From an uncultured Prochlorococcus sp. (GTDB lineage Bacteria > Cyanobacteriota > Cyanobacteriia > PCC-6307 > Cyanobiaceae), in NCBI GenBank assembly GCA_902595175.1, contig CACJPB010000007.1:1-50290 (forward strand): a DNA stretch of 50,290 nucleotides, read 5' to 3'. This document shows, one piece after another, positions 48,882-50,290 of the stretch (position 1 is the stretch's first letter; each line of letters begins with the position of its first letter). Under the pieces are notes generated by a model. The model saw nothing but the letters and a program-made list of their open reading frames with translations, searched no databases and was not told the origin of the DNA. Made by a program: the position numbers and the translations under genes.

Positions 48882-50290
48882 TTATTTTTCTGATTTTATT
48901 TTTTCAGCTTTTGCTTTAACTTCATCAATATTACCAACTAGATAAAATGCCTGCTCTGGTAAATCATCCAATTCACCTGACAGAATCATATTGAATCCAG
49001 CAATGGTATCTTCTAATTTTACATATTTACCCGACATTCCAGTAAATATTTCTGCTACGAAGAAAGGTTGTGAGAGGAATTTTTCTATTTTTCTGGCCCT
49101 GTCGACTGTCAATCTATCTTCTTCAGAAAGCTCATCTAAACCAAGAATTGCGATAATATCTTGAAGTTCTTTGTATCTTTGTAAAGTTGATTGGACAGCT
49201 CTGGCTGTTTTGTAATGCTCATCGCCAACAACTGATGGTTGTAGCATAGTGCTCGTTGAGTCTAATGGATCAACTGCTGGATAAATTCCCTTAGCAGCAA
49301 GAGCTCGAGCAAGCACAGTAGTTGCATCTAAATGGGCAAAAGTTGTAGCTGGAGCAGGGTCTGTTAGATCATCAGCAGGTACGTAAACAGCCTGGATAGA
49401 TGTTATTGACCCTTCTAATGTAGATGTAATTCTTTCTTGTAATTCACCAACATCAGTTCCCAGTGTTGGTTGGTATCCAACAGCTGAAGGCATTCTTCCA
49501 AGTAATGCAGATACTTCAGAACCGGCTTGAACGAATCTAAAAATGTTATCAACAAATAGTAGGACGTCTTGCTTATTTACATCTCTAAAATGTTCGGCCA
49601 TTGTAAGTGCTGATAAGCCTACTCTCATTCTTGCGCCAGGTGGCTCATTCATCTGTCCAAAACACAAGGCAACTTTTGATTGAGTTAGATCATCTGCATT
49701 GATAACTCCAGATTCTTTAAATTCTTCATATAAATCATTCCCTTCTCTAGTTCTTTCTCCTACTCCGCCAAAAACGGAAACTCCCCCATGCTCCTTTGCG
49801 ATGTTATTAATTAATTCTTGAATAAGAACTGTCTTCCCAACTCCAGCACCTCCGAATAATCCAACTTTTCCTCCTTGTCTGTAAGGAGCCAAAAGGTCAA
49901 TTACTTTAATTCCAGTTTCAAAAACTTTTGGCTTAGTTTCTAGGTCAGTTAACTTTGGCGCAGCTCTATGAATTGGAGCAGTATCTTTAGTATTTACTGG
50001 ACCTTGTTCATCTACTGGTTCTCCTAAAACATTAAATATTCTTCCTAAAGTTGCTTCTCCTACAGGTACAGATATCGGTGCTCCTGTGTCTATTGCCTCC
50101 ATGCCAGGAGCGCCCGCTGGAGCAGCTGAATCTTTTTTCTCAGGTAAATCTGCAACTATGCATTCGGTAGTTAGAACCATTCCTGCTATTGAAGCTGCAT
50201 TTTGTAATCCTGAACGTGTAACTTTTGCAGGATCAACTATACCAGCAGAGGACATATCTACATATTCTCCAGTGGCAGCGTTGAAGCCAT
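48882..50290 (-). CDS. atpD: ATP synthase subunit beta lacking its N-terminus, fused in frame to a GroEL C-terminus
   Basis: The frame reads from the window end (partial codon at 50289-50290) to a stop at 48882. The last 406 residues are ATP synthase beta (atpB in cyanobacterial naming), with the P-loop [20 protein letters not shown] and the catalytic domain through [15 protein letters not shown]. The first about 80 residues of beta, the N-terminal barrel domain, are missing. In their place are residues typical of the C-terminal end of GroEL. A chain like this could not form a normal beta subunit or a complete chaperonin. This is probably a chimeric sequence; the native atpD would be about 486 residues. 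Confidence 0.9.
50099..50290 (-). other. groL: GroEL C-terminal segment joined to atpD, partial
   Basis: From the window edge the minus-strand frame reads [20 protein letters not shown], continues through [20 protein letters not shown] and [11 protein letters not shown], and ends at PAGAPGM. This is the C-terminal end of a GroEL chaperonin and stops just short of the usual last few residues. The frame is open to the right edge, so the upstream part of groEL presumably continues there. The join to beta lies at the shared Gly-Met codons, around 50099-50105 (GGCATGG on the minus strand). Confidence 0.88.

Follow-up and report, generated by a model that had tools for sequence, protein, structure and literature searches.

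Chimeric joins are a described product of phi29 multiple displacement amplification (MDA). In the account given by Lasken and Stockwell in 2007, a single E. coli cell had been amplified and 475 chimeras were analysed; inverted ones numbered 406, of which 337 linked segments <10 kb apart, and complementarity at the join is reported there for 93.5% of inverted chimeras <10 kb (PMC1855051). That account proposes that a 3' end, once displaced, primes synthesis again on a displaced strand close by; inverted joins with a deletion, <10 kb and short microhomology are, by its figures, the commonest published form of MDA chimera (PMC1855051). In a survey of human MDA data most overlaps measure 5-8 nt, 6 being the commonest length, and the joined segments lie 0 to 5,000 nt apart, most often 250-300 nt (PMC4595205). 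For Prochlorococcus, the workflow section of one single-cell study describes MDA or WGA-X, assembly in SPAdes single-cell mode and retention of contigs >2,000 bp, and for benchmark cultures it gives 1.5 misassemblies per 100 kb (PMC6122165); the protocol which that workflow followed is described as trimming 100 bp from each contig end (PMC5519541).

Here we examine a stretch of 50,290 nucleotides from an uncultured Prochlorococcus sp. (the window), at whose right end the chaperonin GroEL appears to be fused to the ATP synthase subunit AtpD. This apparent fusion is almost certainly an artificial join, of an ordinary kind, produced when the DNA of one marine cyanobacterial cell was amplified, and not a real gene. 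Like the chimeras described in PMC1855051 it is inverted, carries an intervening deletion, spans <10 kb and has short complementarity. An amplified single-cell source is stated for those chimeras and is an inferred property of this one; furthermore, this join lies at the end of an assembled contig rather than in raw reads, and it keeps a reading frame. With the human MDA chimeras, as that report presents them, it shares an overlap of 6-7 nt and a distance, 2.43 kb, within 0-5,000 nt, but this distance is longer than the 250-300 nt peak, which counts against the MDA reading (PMC4595205).

The joined frame and the gene order of relatives

The ORF list contains an open frame of 468 aa on the minus strand (48882-50288) that runs off the contig end. 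On this strand the GroEL C-terminus comes first and AtpD follows in frame, as the sequence-only reading had claimed, and profile matches and alignments to a relative both confirm it. The GroEL model TIGR02348 matched at 50136-50288 (profile positions 476-526), and NCBIfam atpD TIGR01039 matched frame residues 62-463, starting from profile position 67. The first 63 residues of the frame are GroEL C-terminal sequence, up to a Gly-Met common to both parts; the remainder of the frame is AtpD, beginning with its residue 80, the common Gly. When aligned with the named relative Prochlorococcus AG-895-M21 (locus L035), the last 192 bases of the window correspond to L035 2756-2565, at the GroEL end, with 95% DNA identity, while the 505 nt tested from window 50105 downward correspond to the relative's atpD, from 5001 upward on the other strand, again with 95% identity. 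The two alignments overlap by 7 nt (Table 1). Because AtpD starts at 4764 in L035 and the join falls at 5001, the AtpD part is without its first 79 residues, close to the loss of about 80 that had been estimated from the sequence; the few missing GroEL residues of that estimate are the last six (GGDFDY), together with the stop. GroEL sequence ahead of the 63 residues is absent because the contig ends there, 185 bases from the join.

Table 1. Features at the right end of the window
Feature	Position	Strand	Basis
atpD (F1 ATP synthase subunit beta), first 79 codons absent	48882..50105	-	TIGR01039 match; collinearity with L035 (5001 onward) and, as far as 50105, with four single-contig relatives
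groEL end (groEL1, adjoins groES), 63 codons, inverted	50099..50290	-	TIGR02348 match; 95% to L035 2756-2565; opposite strand ~2.43 kb off in four single-contig relatives
7-nt overlap GGCATGG at the join (minus strand)	50099..50105	-	overlap of the two alignments
atpC (F1 epsilon; named from position and translation)	48437..48841	-	ORF; order as in L035 6265-6669

In L035 the genes are ordered gpmI (+), groEL (-), groES (-), atpD (+) and atpC (+), the names of gpmI, groES and atpC being read from their translations. Given this order, the join skips the body of groEL, groES and the first 79 atpD codons, and inverts one side. Window 35000-50105 aligned as one collinear piece in each of the four single-contig genomes of the genus, and in all four the terminal groEL piece fell ~2.43 kb beyond it, on the opposite strand. 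The same inverted placement is seen in the named loci L035-L040. In the 45 tabulated genomes, each of which has both parts on one contig, the two parts lie on opposite strands in every case, 2,429-2,435 nt apart. The join thus has two properties of an MDA chimera: opposite-strand segments of one neighbourhood are joined inverted (4/4 single-contig and 45/45 tabulated genomes), and by their position in relatives they are <10 kb apart with an intervening deletion. The sequence-only reading had given groEL-groES as divergent from atpD and had argued that a same-strand join requires an inversion plus a deletion. The order given was right, and 2.43 kb is the length skipped in the four single-contig relatives. 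On this comparison the lineage is not built with a groEL-atpD join. The atpD part, collinear as it is with relatives, is the genuine genomic side of the join; atpC, in its normal place downstream of atpD, shows the atpD side to be undisturbed.

We searched for the same join across the genus using the 75 residues that span it as a query against 266 Prochlorococcus-genus genomes. Among the matches listed, one of full length across the join was obtained in the window's own genome only, a further property of an MDA chimera (E 9.2e-45, as against 3.0e-37 for the best other genome, where residues 1-64 matched). The join was not found with this query in the 265 other genomes, of which those with weak matches only (E about 1e-14 to 1e-17) and the 15 with none are silent on the locus, 251 of the 266 having some match. 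When all 468 residues were searched against 151 genomes, 147 matched, and among the matches listed that of the own genome alone covered residues 1-468. In both searches the best E-value per genome covers every genome, and none came near that of the own genome. Occurrence of the same join in other isolates, which the sequence-only reading had named as a refutation of the artefact, was not seen in these 265 genomes.

The heptamer shared by the two genes

In both genes the heptamer at the join spans the codons for Gly and Met plus one further base, in the same phase, and it is for this reason that the frame stays open across the join. Any join at the heptamer would keep the frame; the open frame is therefore no sign of function. 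Selection for an open frame was considered as an explanation and rejected, the same-phase heptamer of the two genes being sufficient.

A microhomology had been proposed at exactly this position. It stands as a 7-nt overlap of the alignments, with its seventh base in doubt. In the fetched relatives, counting only those copies that fit the search patterns (34 of groEL and 35 of atpD, not all independent), the groEL heptamer is GGTATGG in 24/34 copies, with GGA in 9 and GGC in 1, whereas the atpD heptamer is GGCATGG in 29/35. Since the relatives' groEL mostly has GGT and atpD GGC, six of the seven bases are securely shared in this cell and the seventh possibly so; if its groEL has T, the C at the join would come from atpD and the pairing would include one mismatch. 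With either count the overlap falls within the 2-21 nt of complementarity that characterises MDA chimeras. Inverted breakpoints drawn at random in the first 9 kb of L035 (200,000 draws) gave an exact run of at least 7 bases in 0.09% of cases and of at least 4 bases in 2.3%. The join is beyond chance, with two long unambiguous alignments, their inverted arrangement and a run length that is rare at random breakpoints.

The assembly around the join

The assembly that contains the window comprises 1,112,619 bases (1.11 Mb) in 38 contigs and is 65.64% complete with a contamination of 0. Its smallest contig, of 2,116 bases, fits the >2,000 bp limit in the published workflow as described (PMC5519541, PMC6122165). 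The fragmentation, the completeness and this 2-kb contig floor are in keeping with an origin of the assembly from an amplified single cell; origin as a metagenome bin was considered, and the contamination of 0 and the contig floor fit a single-cell assembly. If the workflow described in PMC6122165 was the one used, its benchmark rate would predict about 17 misassemblies for an assembly of 1.11 Mb; a single one, lying at a contig end, would be unremarkable.

Within this assembly each part of the joined frame is found at one place only, and no second copy of the joined DNA was found. A search for a second atpD returned none. The other match is a paralogue with 28% identity, which we take to be atpA. 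Likewise, no intact atpD, groEL1, groES or gpmI bracketing the gap was found in the own genome. The expected surroundings (L035 1-2564 and 2757-5000) were absent by DNA search of the assembly, save for a diverged groEL2 match, and gpmI was absent by a protein search that finds it in two relatives. The join thus lies at the edge of an unrecovered region, beside the contig end, in agreement with the sequence-only reading, which had placed it close to the sequence end. That reading had also suggested looking for intact atpD and groEL on other contigs; neither atpD nor groEL1 was found, and at 65.64% completeness the lack of an intact atpD speaks neither for a real fusion nor against one. One full GroEL is present elsewhere in the assembly (C1:168124-169689), which we read as groEL2-type. 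It was rejected as the source of the tail, having 65% DNA identity to the L035 groEL, a different C-terminal sequence and another place in the single-contig relatives.

Further chimeras were sought in two ways. A fold-back scan covered all 76 contig ends, taking the terminal 5 kb or small contigs whole and accepting matches of at least 28 bases with at least 88% identity; it is blind to joins of the deletion type seen at groEL-atpD. An inverted match touching the tip was found at 0/76 ends, and there was no match between different contigs. The scan listed a 32-base near-palindrome inside contig C22 and a 35-base direct repeat in C3. The two copies of the latter (L188, the right end of G000:C3, 4640-4674 and 4739-4773) have 97% identity, are about 100 bases apart and lie within 400 bases of the contig end. 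In addition, three stretches were compared with the four single-contig relatives (window 1-12000, contig C25 over its full length and the final 18 kb of C1), and each proved collinear with them. The exception, in C1, is about 100 bases (L115, G000:C1:160000-177996, at 10072-10171) that align in three of the four relatives and not in G040, and this appears to be a small strain-variable stretch. No second chimera was found among the 76 tips by fold-back or in the three stretches compared with four relatives, which we count as against, or neutral for, the artefact reading.

Explanations of the join

We consider it very probable that the feature is an in-vitro inverted MDA chimera at a contig end, and no gene fusion. 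In such an event a 3' end copying one gene would be displaced at the Gly-Met heptamer, re-anneal with a displaced strand from the other gene close by, ~2.43 kb off on the opposite strand, and be extended; in the assembly, reads from the chimeric molecule would then make up the final 185-192 bases of the contig. Such reads would be placed at the contig end because the true continuation (the atpD start, groES, the groEL body and gpmI) is missing from the assembly. The inverted order, the distance with its deletion, the microhomology and the absence of the join from 265 other genomes are observed, as is the missing flank at the contig end, and they lend support to the sequence-only reading, which had attributed the join to MDA. 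The kind of polymerase event behind the join is inferred, and few reads would be expected to carry it. A chimera formed elsewhere in vitro, during library preparation or by PCR template switching, or else a pure assembler misjoin would look the same in the contig, and we give it a small share of the probability. A k-mer assembler does not by itself join sequences on an overlap as short as 6-7 nt, and the window has no N as the mark of a scaffold gap, so reads should carry the junction. Such assemblies do carry misassemblies, at the benchmark rate reported for the workflow (PMC6122165), but in the account cited above MDA chimeras most often take the form seen here, inverted and with segments a short distance apart (PMC1855051).

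A real inversion and deletion in this cell's chromosome, fusing groEL to a truncated atpD, is very improbable. In its favour, the frame continues across the join without a stop, and the assembly yielded neither a further atpD nor a further groEL1; against this, the open frame follows from the same-phase Gly-Met microhomology, and in an assembly that is 65.64% complete the flank is missing, not seen rearranged. AtpD is essential, and the fusion would strip the start and the first 79 residues, the N-terminal beta-barrel, from its only gene found here; a match across the join is also lacking in all 265 other genomes. A real fusion would mean that a rearrangement had inactivated an essential gene in a free-living cell, and that a lethal or near-lethal 2.4-kb inversion-deletion was caught in one wild Prochlorococcus cell, with a chaperonin tail on a truncated beta subunit, is more improbable still. 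Least probable of all is a second, partial groEL tail beside a broken atpD, with the intact locus in the unrecovered third of the genome. The missing third could hold such a locus, but each part occurs at one place only in the assembly and the join is absent from every other genome searched.

The relevance of an MDA chimera here is for curation only. The frame would be annotated as an AtpD of 468 residues whose N-terminus is foreign, and protein databases could take it up as a false fusion; we recommend masking or trimming the final 185-192 bases of the contig. A separate irregularity was observed in the groEL1 of one relative (L148, G016:C11, about 1481-3122, minus strand), which is split into three frames of 240, 243 and 76 aa with no N; its two apparent frameshifts are probably indel errors.
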